From Beijerinckiaceae bacterium (GTDB lineage Bacteria > Pseudomonadota > Alphaproteobacteria > Rhizobiales > Beijerinckiaceae), in assembly GCA_947454485.1 (NCBI GenBank), contig CANGJJ010000001.1, positions 372,001 to 436,000 of the forward strand: DNA of 64,000 nucleotides, in the 5' to 3' direction. The position numbers and the translations under genes were made by a program. Below, piece after piece: positions 20,655 to 26,081 of the stretch (position 1 is its first letter; each line of letters opens with the position of its first letter). Under the pieces are notes generated by a model, which saw nothing but the letters and a program-made list of their open reading frames with translations, was not told where the DNA came from and searched no databases.

Positions 20655-23348
20655 GTGACGACACATCATCTCAAATATCTGTTCAGGCCGAGTTCTCTTG
20701 CTCTTGCGGGCGCGAGCGGGCGGCCTGAGAGCCTTGGCCGCGCAGTCCTCAACAATATCCGCCGTATGGATTTTGTTGGTCCCGTCATGCTCATCAATCC
20801 GCGTTATGAGCGCATTGATGATCAGCCTTGCTATCGCAGTATCTCAGTTTTACCGACGCGGCCTGATCTGCTGATTGTTGCAGCCCCGCGCGAGGCGGTC
20901 TGTGATCTGGTTGAAGAAGCTGCGGCACAAGGCGTGCCGGCCTGTATTGTGATCACGGCTGATCCTGATCATGGTCCGCAATCTTTGAGCGCGCGTTTGC
21001 GCGATATTGCCAAGCGCACCTCCATCCGCATCATCGGCCCCAATTGTTTGGGCCTGCTCGCGCCGCGCGCCAAACTCGATGCAAGTTTTTCAGCCTATCC
21101 CGCGCGCGCAGGTGATCTGGCAGTCGTGTCGCAATCAGGCGCGATTGCAGCCTCTCTGACCGCTTTTGCAGATCGTCGTCGCATTGGCTTTTCCGGTCTT
21201 GTCTCTGTCGGTGATATGGCCGATGTGGATTTTGCCGATTTGCTCGATTGGTTTGCGCTTGATCCAGCCACACGGGCCATCTTGCTCTATGTGGAGGCGA
21301 TTGGTGATGCCAAGCGATTCATGTCGGCCGCGCGTGCAGCCGCGCGCGTCAAACCCGTCATCGTGATCAAGTCGGGCCGCCATCCGCGCGCAGCCAAAGC
21401 CGCGGCCACTCATACGGGCGCGCTGGCTGGCTCTGATTCTGTCTATGATGCAGCCTTCCGGCGTGCCGGCATTTTGCGTGTGCGCGATATTGATGAATTG
21501 TTTGATGCAGCCGAAGCGCTGGGGCGTGTGCGCCCCTTCCCCGGCAATCGTCTGGCCATTTTGACCAATGGCGGCGGCATTGGTGTTTTGGCGGTCGATG
21601 ATCTGATCGACCTTGGTGGCAAACTCGCAGAACTATCTGCCCCCACGCGCGATGCGCTTGACGCTGTGCTGCCAGCCACTTGGTCTCATGCCAATCCGGT
21701 CGATATTGTGGGTGATGCCGATCCTCAGCGCTTTACCGCAGCGCTTGCGCCTTTGCTGGAAGACCCGGTCAATGATGCCGTCATGGTCATGCATTGTCCC
21801 ACGGCTTTGTCGGATGGGGAGAAGGTCGCGCAAGCGATCGCCGATTGCGTGAAAGAGAGCGGCACGCGCAAACCTGTCTTTGCGGTCTGGCTTGGGGCTA
21901 CGGCCAAGAGCGACCGTATTTTTGAAGAGGCGCGCATTCCCCATTACGACACCGAAGCCATGCGCGGCTTCATGCATCTTGTCACATGGCAGCAAAATCG
22001 CGAAGCCTTGATGGCGACGCCGCCCAATCTGCCGGAAGGTTTTAGCCCCGATCTCAACAAGGCGCGCACAGCGGTCCAATCGGCTTTGGCGCGCGGTGAT
22101 CGATGGCTTGATCCCCTCGAGGTCACAGCGCTTCTCAGCGCCTATGCGATCAATTGTGTACCAGCAATTCTGGCGCGCGACGCAGATGAAGCTGTCACCA
22201 TTGCCGGGCCGCTCATCGCTGAACATGGTAGCTGTGTCGTCAAGATCTTCTCGCGCGATATTCAGCACAAATCTGATGTCGAAGGCGTTGTGCTTGATCT
22301 GGCGAGCACAACAGCGGTGCGTGAGGCTGTCGTGAATATGCTCGCGCGCGTGGCGCAGCGCATGCCCGGCGCACGGATTGAAGGCGTGACAGTCCATCCG
22401 ATGATCAAGCGGCCCCATGGGCGCGAGTTGATCGCAGGCATCGCAGAAGATGCGACCTTCGGGCCCGTTATCTTGTTTGGGGGTGGCGGCAAAGCGGTCG
22501 AAGTGATGAATGATCGCGCGCTGGCTCTGCCGCCGCTTGATCTTGGCCTCGCGCTTGATCTCATCGAGCGCACGCGCGTGGTGCGCATCTTGCGCAGCTA
22601 TCGCGATGTTCCGGGCGCTGACCTTGATGAGGTTGCGCTCACACTCGTCAAACTGGCGCAGCTCTCGGCTGATCTGCCTGAGATCATGGAGCTGGATATT
22701 AATCCCCTGCTCGCCGATGCGCAGGGCGTTTTAGCTATGGATGCGCGCGTGCGTGTGATGGCGAGTGATGGCAAGCGCAGTCTCGTCAATCCGCGCTTTG
22801 CCGTTGCGCCTTATCCCAAGCAATGGGAGCGTTGGCTGACGGGGCGCGATGGTCGTCGCGTCTTTGTGCGTCCTGTGCGCCCTGAAGATGAGAATATGTA
22901 TCGTCGTTTCTTCGAACAGGTCTCGCCGGAGGATTTGCGTCTGCGCTTCTTCGCGCCTGTCAAAGAGTTCAGCCATGCTTTCATCGCGCGCCTGACGCAG
23001 ATTGATTATGCGCGCTCCTTCGTTCTGTGCGCCGTGCTGGAGACGGGCGAGATGCTGGGGGCGGTGCGCTTGATGCTCGATGCGGATCGCGAAAGCGGCG
23101 AATATGCGATCCTCTTGCGCTCAGACCAGCAGGGCCGAGGTCTTGGTCGTGCGCTGATGGAATTGATGATCACCTATGCCAAGGGCGAGGGCGTGCGTCA
23201 CATCCATGGTCAGGTGCTGGCGGATAATGGCGTCATGCTGGCCATGTGCGAACAGCTGGGCTTCGTGGCGCATGATGAGCTTGATGATCCGGGTGTGAAA
23301 TATGTCAGCCTTGATCTGGCCAAAGCCGCTCCGCCGATCCTGACCTGA
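20655..23348 (+). CDS. Pat/PatZ-like acyl-CoA synthetase (ADP-forming) fused to GNAT acetyltransferase, 897 aa
   Basis: Domain order: CoA-binding (about residues 8-130, [21 protein letters not shown]), succinyl-CoA-synthetase-like ligase domains (about 140-450, [28 protein letters not shown]), ATP-grasp (about 480-700, [18 protein letters not shown]) and a C-terminal GNAT domain (about 725-885, [31 protein letters not shown]). This is the layout of bacterial protein lysine acetyltransferases Pat/PatZ, which tune acetyl-CoA synthetase and other enzymes. It could also retain acyl-CoA synthetase activity. The start is GTG behind GGGGTGA. Confidence 0.9.
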
Positions 23349-23351
23349 CCC

Positions 23352-23421
23352 TGAAAAGAAAGGAGGCCGCCTGCGTCGCCGCTGCGGCCCCAAGTTCAGG
23401 GAGGAAACGCCCAAAAGGGCT
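23352..23421 (-). ncRNA. Candidate small RNA, copy 1 of a tandem pair, anti-Shine-Dalgarno type
   Basis: Read on the minus strand: a short 5' hairpin GCCC-TTTT-GGGC, an open stretch containing TTTCCTCCC, then GGCCGC...GCGGCC followed by TCCTTTCTTTT, which looks like a Rho-independent terminator. The tail CCTCCTTTCT is identical to the 3' end of alphaproteobacterial 16S rRNA. A promoter-like pair, TTGTTT (23450-23455) and CAGAAT (23428-23433) with 16 bp between, sits six bases before the inferred first base. It is repeated as copy 2 about 190 bp away. No coding frame is conserved between the copies. Expression is inferred, not shown. Confidence 0.6.
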
Positions 23422-23539
23422 AAGACAATTCTGCATTTTGCACCGCACAAAACAAACGCAGATGCAGCATGACAGGCATGCAAATTTCGCGGGGATAGGG
23501 GAATTGGTGAGGCGGCGCTGATGGCGCAAAACCTGCCCT

Positions 23540-23610
23540 GAAAAAGAAAGGAGGCCGCTGTGTCGCCACGGCGGCCCCAAGTCGATAGGGAGGAAACGCC
23601 CAAAAGGGCT
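23540..23610 (-). ncRNA. Candidate small RNA, copy 2 of a tandem pair, anti-Shine-Dalgarno type
   Basis: Same plan as copy 1: GCCC-TTTT-GGGC hairpin, TTTCCTCCC, then a GGCCGC/GCGGCC stem and TCCTTTCTTTTT. The stem arms, the TCCTCCC motif and the tail are conserved while the loop and the linker differ, as expected for a structured RNA. The promoter-like elements are TTGCTC (plus-strand 23640-23645) and TATCAA (23617-23622) with a 17-bp spacer and six bases to the inferred start at 23610. The remaining sequence to 23716 shows nothing else. Confidence 0.62.
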
Positions 23611-23716
23611 GAGATGTTGATACCCAAATGCCGGATGCGGAGCAATGTCGGTCTGCTCAAGGCAGCTATGCGCTAAGCGCATGGCAAGGCTTTTACGCCT
23701 TACGCAATTGCAGCAT

Positions 23717-23932
23717 TCAAGTTTTCTTTTTTTGATCCGCGGCTTCGTCGGCCTGTATCCGGGCGGAATCTTCGGGAGTCTTCTTGCCCTTGGGAGCGCC
23801 TGCGTGAGAGCGCGGCTGCGTCGTTGAGGGCGGATCGCTGGCGGGGAAACTGTCCTCCAGCTCTTCTTCCAGCTGATCATCTTGCGCTTGCTTGGCCGTT
23901 TGGGGCTGTGGCTTGGGGTGTTTCTGGGTCAT
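23717..23932 (-). CDS. Small conserved protein with SFPASDPPS motif, 71 aa
   Basis: A very hydrophilic, Lys/Gln/Asp-rich small protein, likely unstructured. Its centre carries EEELEDSFPASDPPSTT, a motif seen in a widespread family of uncharacterised small alphaproteobacterial proteins. The start MTQKHPKPQPQ at 23932 has a GGGAGA ribosome site; an in-frame ATG at 23989 would overlap lutC and is less likely. It lies 53 bp downstream of lutC on the same strand. Function unknown. Confidence 0.75.
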   Translation of the reverse strand: MTQKHPKPQPQTAKQAQDDQLEEELEDSFPASDPPSTTQPRSHAGAPKGKKTPEDSARIQADEAADQKKKT

Positions 23933-23985
23933 CTTGGTCTCCCGCTCAGGCAAGACAACGCCCCTTCGGGTCAGCTGTTCCCCTC

Positions 23986-24654
23986 TCAATCCGTGACCAG
24001 CACAATATGCAGGCGGCGCGGCCCATGGGCGCCGAGCAATAGCTGTTGCTCAATATCGGCGGATCGCGACGGGCCCGAGATGAGATTGACCGTGCGCGGC
24101 AGCTGACCTTTGCCATAGAGCTGACGCAAGCGCGACCACGCGCTTTCCAGATCGCCCACAAGATCGCTCTGATTGAGCACCACGATGTGATTGTCGGGCA
24201 GGAAGTTCAGCGTCGTGGGATTGGCAGCGCCTGACAGCAGGCACACAGTCCCAGTCTCTGCGATGCCCGCAAAGGCATGACTGATTCCGTTGAGGTCATC
24301 TCCATTCGAGCGCCCTTGCGTGATCTCCAGTTGCGCTGCGCTCCAGTCAAGCGCGCTCAAACGCGGGTCACTGCCCATGCGCGCGGTGAGGGGTAAATTC
24401 TGCGACCGCAGATAACGGGCGATCTCAGCGGGAATATCTTGCGCGGTTGCCACTTGCGTGACGCTGGCTTGTACGCGCTGGGCTTCATCCACAAAGGTTG
24501 CGACTTGCTGGCCTCTGTCGCCTTGGCCACGCGCTGGCACAATGCCGCGCGGCGTGTTGCGCAAGCGCGCCTCCACAGCAGCGCGGCGCGTGGCATCATC
24601 ACCCTGATGCAGGGCTTGGCGAATGGTGGCGAGAATCTCGTCACGCGCGCTCAT
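23986..24654 (-). CDS. lutC: Lactate utilization protein C (LUD domain)
   Basis: A LUD-domain (YkgG/LutC) protein, 222 aa, third component of the LutABC L-lactate oxidation complex. Diagnostic stretches are GIAETGTVCLLSGAANP, NFLPDNHIVVLNQSDLV and VNLISGPSRSADIEQQLLLGAHGPRRLHIVLV. The start MSARDEILATIRQAL at 24654 has GGGAGG upstream and overlaps the lutB stop (ATGA), so the genes are co-translated. Cytoplasmic. Confidence 0.93.
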   Translation of the reverse strand: MSARDEILATIRQALHQGDDATRRAAVEARLRNTPRGIVPARGQGDRGQQVATFVDEAQRVQASVTQVATAQDIPAEIARYLRSQNLPLTARMGSDPRLSALDWSAAQLEITQGRSNGDDLNGISHAFAGIAETGTVCLLSGAANPTTLNFLPDNHIVVLNQSDLVGDLESAWSRLRQLYGKGQLPRTVNLISGPSRSADIEQQLLLGAHGPRRLHIVLVTD

Positions 24655-26081
24655 GAGCAGCGCCCTCCCTTTGCGCGCCATTGTTCCTGAAAGGTCTTGC
24701 CTTGCGGTGCGGGCATATCGCGATATTGCGTCCATCCACCTGCCAAAGGCAGATGCGAGAAGCGCCCGCTCTTGCGCCCAAGCCAAGCCAGAATCGGCAT
24801 CGCAATGGCTGTGAGCAAACGATAGACCAGTTCATGCCGAGCGATGAAAGCCCACAGGCGAAGACCATAGCGCTGCAATGCTGGATTGAGATGGCGCTCA
24901 AATTCGCGCTCGCGCCAATGGCGCATCAGTTTCGGCAAGGGAATATGCACCGGGCACACGCTTTCGCAGCGCCCGCAGAAGGTCGAAGCATTGGGTAGCT
25001 GCCCGCCCTCTTCAACGCCGATGAGAGAGGGTGTCAGCACAGCGCCCATCGGGCCGGGATAGACCCAGCCATAAGCATGGCCGCCCACCGCGTGATAGAC
25101 TGGGCAATGGTTCATGCACGCGCCGCAGCGAATGCAGCGCAGCATCTCTTCAAACTCGCTGCCGATCATGCGGCTGCGACCATTATCGACAAGCACGACA
25201 TGATAATGCTCAGGCCCATCGACATCGCCAGGCCGGCGCGGGCCGGTGGAGATGGTGGAATAAACAGTCATGTCCTGACCCGTCGCTGAACGCGCCAACA
25301 CGCGCATGATCTGCGCGGCATCATCGAGCGTGGGGACAATCTTTTCCAGCGATGCGACGACGATATGAACGCGCGGCAAAATCTGGGTGAGATCGCCATT
25401 GCCTTCATTGGTCACGATGATGGAGCTGCCCGTTTCAGCCACCAGAAAATTGGCACCCGTAATGCCAATATCAGCGCCCAGAAATTTCGCACGCAAAATG
25501 CCGCGTGCTTCACTCAACAAAGTCTCTGGCTGGGTGAGATCGCGGTCAATGGGCAGATGTGTGTGTACGCGGCGGAAGTCCTCCTCCACCTGTTCTTTGT
25601 TCAGATGGACCGCAGGTGCGATAATATGAGATGGCGTTTCACCACGCAGCTGGATGATATATTCGCCAAGGTCGGTCTCAACCGCCTCCATGCCAGCTGC
25701 TTCAATCGCAGCATTCAGGCCGATCTCTTCTGAGACCATCGACTTGCCCTTGGTGACGCTCTTGGCCCCATGGGCTTTGCAAATCGCCACGATCTCGTCG
25801 CAGGCCTCTTGCGCGCTACGCGCAAAATGTACTTTGCCACCTTGCGCGACAACCTGCGCCTCATAGCGCTCGAGATACAGATCAAGATGGGCGAGCACAT
25901 GATCTTTGATGGCGCGAGCGCTGTCACGCAGCGCGTCAAATTCTGGCAAGCGCGCAGCAGCACTCGCGCGGCGCTCGACAAAATTGTTGCGTACATTGCC
26001 CAGAGCTTTTTGCAATTGGGCATCATGCAAAGCGTGATGCGCATTGTCTTTGAATTGCGGTGTTGTTGAGTGCAGGCTCAT
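24651..26081 (-). CDS. lutB: Lactate utilization iron-sulfur protein B
   Basis: LutB (YkgF), 476 aa, with an N-terminal LUD domain (KSVTKGKSMVSEEIGLN; GITGANFLVAETGSSIIVTNEGN) and two C-terminal ferredoxin-like 4Fe-4S sites: CIRCGACMNHCPVY near residue 310 and CGRCESVCPVHIP near 360. It passes electrons from L-lactate oxidation. It overlaps lutA at the start and lutC at the end by ATGA, forming a tight three-gene operon. No lactate permease gene is adjacent. Confidence 0.95.
   Translation of the reverse strand: MSLHSTTPQFKDNAHHALHDAQLQKALGNVRNNFVERRASAAARLPEFDALRDSARAIKDHVLAHLDLYLERYEAQVVAQGGKVHFARSAQEACDEIVAICKAHGAKSVTKGKSMVSEEIGLNAAIEAAGMEAVETDLGEYIIQLRGETPSHIIAPAVHLNKEQVEEDFRRVHTHLPIDRDLTQPETLLSEARGILRAKFLGADIGITGANFLVAETGSSIIVTNEGNGDLTQILPRVHIVVASLEKIVPTLDDAAQIMRVLARSATGQDMTVYSTISTGPRRPGDVDGPEHYHVVLVDNGRSRMIGSEFEEMLRCIRCGACMNHCPVYHAVGGHAYGWVYPGPMGAVLTPSLIGVEEGGQLPNASTFCGRCESVCPVHIPLPKLMRHWREREFERHLNPALQRYGLRLWAFIARHELVYRLLTAIAMPILAWLGRKSGRFSHLPLAGGWTQYRDMPAPQGKTFQEQWRAKGGRCS

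Follow-up and report, generated by a model that had tools for sequence, protein, structure and literature searches.

Two repeated units on the minus strand of the window (the whole 64,000-nucleotide stretch of Beijerinckiaceae DNA analysed here) are identified by covariance model as tandem paralogues of the alpha-r8 small RNA family, to which MmgR of Sinorhizobium and SisA-D of Caulobacter belong. RNAs of this family silence mRNAs by masking the ribosome sites with a CU-rich segment. The Rfam model RF00519 (suhB/MmgR, i.e. alpha-r8) matches both units over its full length (model positions 1-77): copy 1, the nearest to an acyl-CoA synthetase-like gene, lies at 23350-23427 with 55.9 bits, and copy 2 at 23538-23616 with 53.0 bits. 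Since both exceed the Rfam cut-off of 41, a chance match is excluded. With E values up to 1, the region 23300-23720 gave RF00519 twice and one chance-level match to rne5, and nothing else; alpha-r14/NfeR1 and the cuckoo RNAs, which an initial annotation had named, therefore give way to alpha-r8/MmgR. On the sequence evidence, the repeats are genuine genes for small RNAs of an established family, of an ordinary kind and well accounted for; what stands out is a curious terminator end specific to the lineage and a sharper prediction of targets. We consider it very probable that the explanation holds as a whole, namely alpha-r8 RNAs whose internal 10-mer would pair with ribosome-binding sites on Hfq and whose 16S-like tail would be a terminator end. 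Family membership, anatomy, conservation, predicted accessibility and target-class enrichment are established by computation.

Copy number and genomic context

The window's own genome holds four alpha-r8 copies in two tandem pairs, and the window pair has the lowest RF00519 scores of the four. The second pair (G000, contig C5) has an FGase gene (PF05013) on one side and an opposite-strand inositol-monophosphatase (SuhB-type) gene on the other. This is the neighbourhood given for the alpha-r8 family in the available text of two reports (PMC12559287, PMC1273637). The FGase-adjacent copy found in most species of the family is provided by this second pair, and the window pair adjoins the synthetase/GNAT gene. 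Among the 61 genomes searched (own included), 54 contain an RF00519 match and 49 contain one over the cut-off; this search used stricter filters, with the result that weak matches were lost. It listed 108 over-cut-off copies, of which 107 were sequenced (86 from the same genus, own included, and 21 from other families of the order). A single genome has up to 5 of these sequenced copies. Tandem pairs less than 500 bases apart number 18 among the 107 and are spread over 17 genomes, of which 14 belong to the genus (own included) and 3 do not. Multiple and adjacent alpha-r8 copies are already known from the accessible part of PMC12559287, and suhB RNA was recognised in 2005 as a multicopy noncoding RNA, according to the accessible part of PMC1273637.

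The small-RNA pair is flanked on one side by the 3' end of the acyl-CoA synthetase-like gene, which carries a GNAT domain (20655-23348), and on the other by a small ORF beside two LUD-domain genes. Between the small RNAs and the LUD genes (23717-23947), a 76-aa reading that starts at an internal ATG within a 90-aa ORF had no match in a Pfam search. The two LUD-domain genes (23986-26081), one with LutB-type 4Fe-4S domains, adjoin the small RNAs and resemble a lactate-utilisation operon.

Relatives of the synthetase were found on 80 contigs, 27 of which were examined downstream of the match. The core motif lies 69-82 bases past the end of the synthetase match in 5 of these 27 contigs, which are the 5 at 76-77% protein identity, and 2 of the 5 have a second core further out. 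Among the other 22 contigs, the 20 that hold at least 1 kb downstream have no core within the first 700 bases. A block around GCATGGCTGCCAT, ~60 bases upstream of the 10-mer, is common to the synthetase-locus copies (e.g. G005:C40 and both window copies).

Anatomy, folding and conservation of the RNAs

The tandem arrangement, with a mini-hairpin, a CU-rich stretch, a stem and a tail in each unit, is present as the initial annotation described it. It consists of a direct repeat 23349-23395/23536-23582 (77% identity, spacing 187) and a direct repeat 23398-23425/23587-23614 (96% identity, spacing 189). On the minus strand, both units read as a mini-hairpin, TTTCCTCCCT, a GGGGCCGC/GCGGCC stem and then TCCTTTCT followed by T residues. 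Each RNA would be ~77 nt long, with a mini-hairpin first, then the 10-mer (UUUCCUCCCU) as a single strand, and after a linker an intrinsic terminator. The mini-hairpin GCCC UUUU GGGC, supported by sequence and fold, occupies 23409-23420 in copy 1 and 23598-23609 in copy 2. The 10-mer, the proposed mRNA-pairing element, is exact in both copies and stands internally after this weak hairpin, as is typical of the family, at 23398-23407 and 23587-23596, with predicted mean unpaired probabilities of 0.87 and 0.62, respectively. In the fold of copy 2, part of the 10-mer pairs with an upstream GGG, and this partial pairing speaks against our preferred explanation. The terminators (minus strand) run from GGGGCCGC to GCGGCC, followed by UCCUUUCUUUU in copy 1 (23354-23391) and by UCCUUUCUUUUU in copy 2 (23542-23578); they include ten-base matches to the 16S 3' end at 23357-23366 and 23545-23554. 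Both folds show the GC-rich stem and T-rich tail of a Rho-independent terminator; a simple terminator scan listed neither copy, the hairpins exceeding its loop or tail limits.

The initial annotation's expectation that stems and motifs are kept in related genomes was borne out. The 10-mer is exact in 77 of the 86 same-genus copies (own included) and in 18 of the 21 other-family copies. A 5' hairpin was looked for over the 31 bases upstream of the mini-hairpin in 99 copies, 8 of the 107 being left out for lack of the TTTCCTCCC anchor. With 100 mononucleotide shuffles per sequence, 79 of the 99 copies have a z below -1.5. The same test detected no 5' hairpin in the window copies (z of -0.3 and 0.3), and six relatives' copies at the synthetase-locus type range from -1.5 to 0.7. 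We judged this hairpin sequence by sequence because the alignment given to RNAalifold (MAFFT, 35 chosen copies) mixed different 5' regions and loop lengths; it yielded no usable consensus, none of its 9 predicted pairs showing a change on both sides, a result that speaks neither for nor against the hairpins.

Upstream regions and PhaR-type sites

The initial annotation had also placed a promoter-like pair before each copy. A consensus scan of 23300-23800 did not confirm this, with 0 sigma-70-like sites found (0.1 expected). Alphaproteobacterial promoters can depart from the sigma-70 consensus. In S. meliloti, PhaR/AniA represses mmgR and binds its promoter (available text of PMC12542648), and a dyad lies within the -35/-10 region of this gene (available text of PMC8401924). 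The pattern YGCRNYGCR, a core resembling the published one, is found upstream of 63 of the 99 copies, in most cases ~60-69 and 39-52 bases ahead of the 10-mer; in 200 mononucleotide shuffles the mean was 1.4 of 99 and the maximum 6, and five altered patterns were found upstream of 0 to 4 copies. Over the window in its entirety, YGCRNYGCR is not more frequent than expected by chance (92 occurrences vs. 105 expected), and it is only its position upstream of the RNAs that is notable.

Copy 1 has such a putative PhaR-type operator core at 23439-23447, a self-complementary match to YGCRNYGCR that reads TGCGGTGCA on the minus strand; the region upstream of copy 2 has no exact match. PhaR-type sites are found upstream of 2 of the 4 own alpha-r8 copies. 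We infer PhaR-type control of copy 1. The PhaR gene itself (PF07879) is present in 49 of the 61 genomes and was not found in the window's assembly, which is 98.6% complete and contains a PHB synthase gene. This absence may reflect either gene loss or an assembly gap, which look alike here.

Predicted targets of the 10-mer

The best-supported mechanism, by analogy with that proposed for Caulobacter SisA, would be repression via the internal single-stranded UUUCCUCCCU. The 10-mer would most likely pair, on Hfq, with GGGAGGAAA-type ribosome-binding sites and block translation, mainly of uptake genes (periplasmic solute-binding proteins) and catabolism genes; we infer that the RNAs are transcribed, bind Hfq and repress in this way. 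According to the available text of PMC12559287, probing and compensatory changes showed in Caulobacter that the 10-mer region pairs with the sponge CrfA, the wide repression by SisA is ascribed by the authors to the 10-mer with its anti-SD signature, and pairing with an mRNA target was predicted and mutants were made. In a full-text literature search for UUUCCUCCCU, this report was the sole match concerning alpha-r8.

The exact complement of the 10-mer is found 3-9 bases before an ATG in 45 of the 61 genomes. We read 30 of these loci, one per genome (30 of the 45 genomes with a match, not a random draw); three are antisense to alpha-r8 copies (L209, L216, L238), and 27 remain. An open ORF of at least 140 aa follows in 22 of the 27, and 25 were scanned for protein domains, L221 and L227 (24 and 13 aa) being left out. 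Solute-binding proteins over the Pfam cut-off account for 9 of the 27 loci (4 TctC, 3 NMT1, 1 DctP and 1 Peripla_BP_6), a count that does not include L217 (TctC, 22 bits for a cut-off of 27) or L219 (TctC-like by eye, without a Pfam match). Among the remaining loci are genes for an MFS transporter, a VanA-type oxygenase and an acyl-CoA dehydrogenase. In two species of the same genus, the EutA gene (L236:1-1503, L237:1-1503) has AGGGAGGAAAC in its ribosome-binding site and is a candidate target common to both. The own genome contains six exact complements of the 10-mer: four antisense to the own copies, one without a start codon in the next 20 bases, and one in a ribosome-binding site. This sole pre-start site belongs to an NMT1-type solute-binding protein (leader sequence AGGGAGGAAAGACCTGATG).

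As a control, we used an unrelated SD (AAAGGAGAT) and read 30 loci, one per genome from 30 of the 57 genomes with a match. Ten of them, with ORFs of 95 aa or less (one cut by a contig end), were left unscanned, and 0 of the 20 scanned loci encode a solute-binding protein. ORFs of at least 140 aa follow 17 of the 30 control loci, vs. 22 of the 27 ten-mer loci (p 0.05), a share that is hardly different. The complement of the 16S-like tail is scarce before ATG (27 places in 17 of the 61 genomes, all taken as the tail set, in which row L255 re-found the ORF of its neighbour L263). Five of these places are antisense to the RNAs themselves, and 12 of the other 22 precede ORFs shorter than 50 aa. The genes with Pfam matches are five distinct ones (metallo-beta-lactamase fold, EF-hand, HSP20, lyase and Xre/MbcA antitoxin-like), and 0 of the 9 scanned encode a solute-binding protein. 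The enrichment of this class among the ten-mer loci gave Fisher values of 0.0005 vs. 0/30 and 0.0025 vs. 0/22, with unscanned loci counted as negative, relatedness ignored and the class picked after the list had been seen; such genes may also simply favour a similar SD. On these sequence counts, the comparison favours the 10-mer rather than the tail as the element that pairs, and does not by itself prove repression.

The 16S-like tail and alternative readings

The tail motif CCTCCTTTCT (RNA form CCUCCUUUCU) is identical over ten bases to the 16S rRNA end (GGATCACCTCCTTTCTAAGG) of G022 and G030, two same-genus genomes, in agreement with the initial annotation. This identity rests on G022 and G030 because the window's own assembly holds no 16S gene; among the nine genomes searched, just these two had one. 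In the own 3.29 Mb genome, CCTCCTTTCT occurs in four places, three of them within alpha-r8 RNAs. The fourth (G000:C4:133649-133665, L247) is complementary to the ribosome-binding site of a gene resembling Xre/MbcA antitoxins. The exact tail is found in 42 of the 86 same-genus copies (3 of the 4 own) and in 0 of the 21 other-family copies; 10 further same-genus copies retain CCTCCTTT or CCTCCTTTC. The 12-mer CCTCCTTTCTTT occurs in 46 places in the 61 genomes, 43 of them in the genus, of which 40 are in over-cut-off copies and 1 in a truncated copy. Two more genus places (G007:C117:1231 and G017:C202:3866) have no counterpart among the known copies and may be small RNAs that have diverged. From this distribution and the near-confinement of CCTCCTTTCTTT to these RNAs, the tail is judged a real derived feature of the alpha-r8 RNAs and not the general terminator end of the genus. 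A full-text literature search for CCUCCUUUCU returned, among the matches listed, 16S ends, Mycoplasma and human or primate RNAs, and none on alpha-r8.

The tail is most likely a terminator and not a second anti-SD element, because its CCUCC is mostly paired in the predicted folds and accompanies a fourth G in the opposite arm, because the tail varies, and because its complement seldom precedes recognisable genes. For the 42 copies with both exact motifs, folded as an assumed transcript that starts 36 bases ahead of the 10-mer and stops where the T-run ends, the predicted mean unpaired probability is 0.87 for the 10-mer, 0.25 for the tail CCUCC and 0.70 for UUUCU. Tail position 2 is a C in 46 of 47 copies with a GGGG arm and in 10 of 22 with GGG (Fisher 8e-7, relatedness ignored), as expected if an extension of the stem pairs this C with the fourth G; 9 of 78 same-genus copies have other arm starts and were not used in this comparison, and 3 more copies were left out of the tail columns (2 without a recognisable arm, 1 without a linker). 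Same-genus copies that end otherwise (GTCTTTTT, TTCTTTCT, TCTTTTCT and others) still have the core motif, and the tail is varied in many copies that retain the 10-mer. The CCUCC would lengthen the terminator stem by pairing with the GGGG arm, and the tail UUUCUUUU would serve termination and Hfq binding.

The tail could instead act itself as a second anti-SD element, a mimic of the 16S 3' end that masks ribosome sites, which we regard as quite unlikely. Its exact match to the 16S end is kept over 24 different stem-loop sequences in the 42 same-genus copies, at least CCTCCTTT is retained in 52 of the 86, and 41 of the 43 genus places of CCTCCTTTCTTT are alpha-r8 RNAs, one truncated copy counted. 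The UUUCU half is mostly unpaired, and a C at position 3 is retained in 44 of 47 GGGG and 19 of 22 GGG copies, which stem pairing alone does not explain; the antitoxin-like site in the own genome also fits such a mimic. However, this reading has to accommodate the predicted pairing of CCUCC, the rarity of the complement before ATG with no solute-binding protein among the genes scanned, the absence of the exact tail from all 21 other-family copies, and its inexactness in 44 of the 86 same-genus copies, whereas the 10-mer is exact in 77. The initial annotation's trans-acting RNAs masking ribosome sites stand as to their anti-SD small RNA look and not as to the 16S-like tail as the working element; as part of a terminator, mostly paired at CCUCC and inconstant among copies, the tail fits this role less well than the internal UUUCCUCCCU.

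The window pair may also be a decaying duplicate, i.e. former alpha-r8 genes that are now poorly expressed. Its low scores among the own copies, the lack of a 5' hairpin and of a consensus promoter, and the lack of an exact PhaR-type site before copy 2 point in this direction. We nevertheless think it unlikely, as both copies have kept an intact 10-mer, mini-hairpin and terminator, and same-place copies in relatives also lack a clear 5' hairpin and have retained the core; moreover, S. meliloti MmgR is itself a 77-nt RNA (available text of PMC7143759). One or both window copies could be weakly expressed, because they have neither a 5' hairpin nor a consensus promoter. It is extremely improbable that the repeats are mere terminators or a palindromic repeat element with no regulatory RNA function. 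Each unit does contain a strong hairpin that runs into a T-rich tail and lies close to where a convergent gene ends, but the full-length Rfam match includes the unpaired 10-mer, which terminators do not need and which is conserved across families.

Comparison with known small RNAs

The alpha-r8 reading brings the window RNAs close to MmgR of S. meliloti (RF00519), which they resemble in the model-long match, the ~77 nt, the 10-mer, the terminator and the PhaR/AniA-type site upstream of copy 1. They differ from it in forming a tandem pair, in their terminator end UCCUUUCU, in their neighbours, and in that no PhaR gene was found in the assembly. SisA-D of C. crescentus, as described in the available text of PMC12559287, are also four siblings that have a weak hairpin, then UUUCCUCCCU, and a terminator, and share the anti-SD signature and uptake-gene targets; unlike them, the own copies lie in two tandem pairs, and their predicted targets are periplasmic solute-binding proteins, whereas TonB-dependent receptors are stressed for SisA. 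AbcR1/AbcR2 (alpha-r15) are likewise tandem, with CU-rich anti-SD motifs and transporter targets (available text of PMC7143759). They are 114-120 nt long with two unpaired aSD motifs, whereas the RF00519 match of the window RNAs is full-length and a single motif in them is clearly unpaired. NfeR1 (alpha-r14) is another anti-SD small RNA with transporter targets; it has three hairpins, each with an unpaired aSD motif in its loop (same source, available text of PMC7143759). In the folds of the window RNAs, the 10-mer separates the mini-hairpin from the terminator and is not found in three hairpin loops, and NfeR1 was rejected as a candidate. The cuckoo RNAs of Rhodobacter have paired CCUCCUCCC loops and a linked small ORF, and no cuckoo model was matched in Rfam scans of the window RNAs.

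Implications

One further scenario, which we hold to be very unlikely, is that the terminator end of the alpha-r8 RNAs in this genus came to copy the 16S 3' end exactly, and that this copy is concealed by the matching fourth G and exposed only when the helix opens (e.g. on Hfq), and that it would give these RNAs two anti-SD modules, the specific 10-mer and a general ribosome-site mimic. On the preferred reading, a terminator tail can match the 16S end without being a likely pairing element, which calls for caution when anti-SD RNAs are identified by their motifs. The presence of a PhaR-type operator where no PhaR gene was detected is a minor puzzle. A lineage with several alpha-r8 siblings is added to those known, together with a predicted target class, solute-binding proteins with AGGGAGGAAA ribosome sites.
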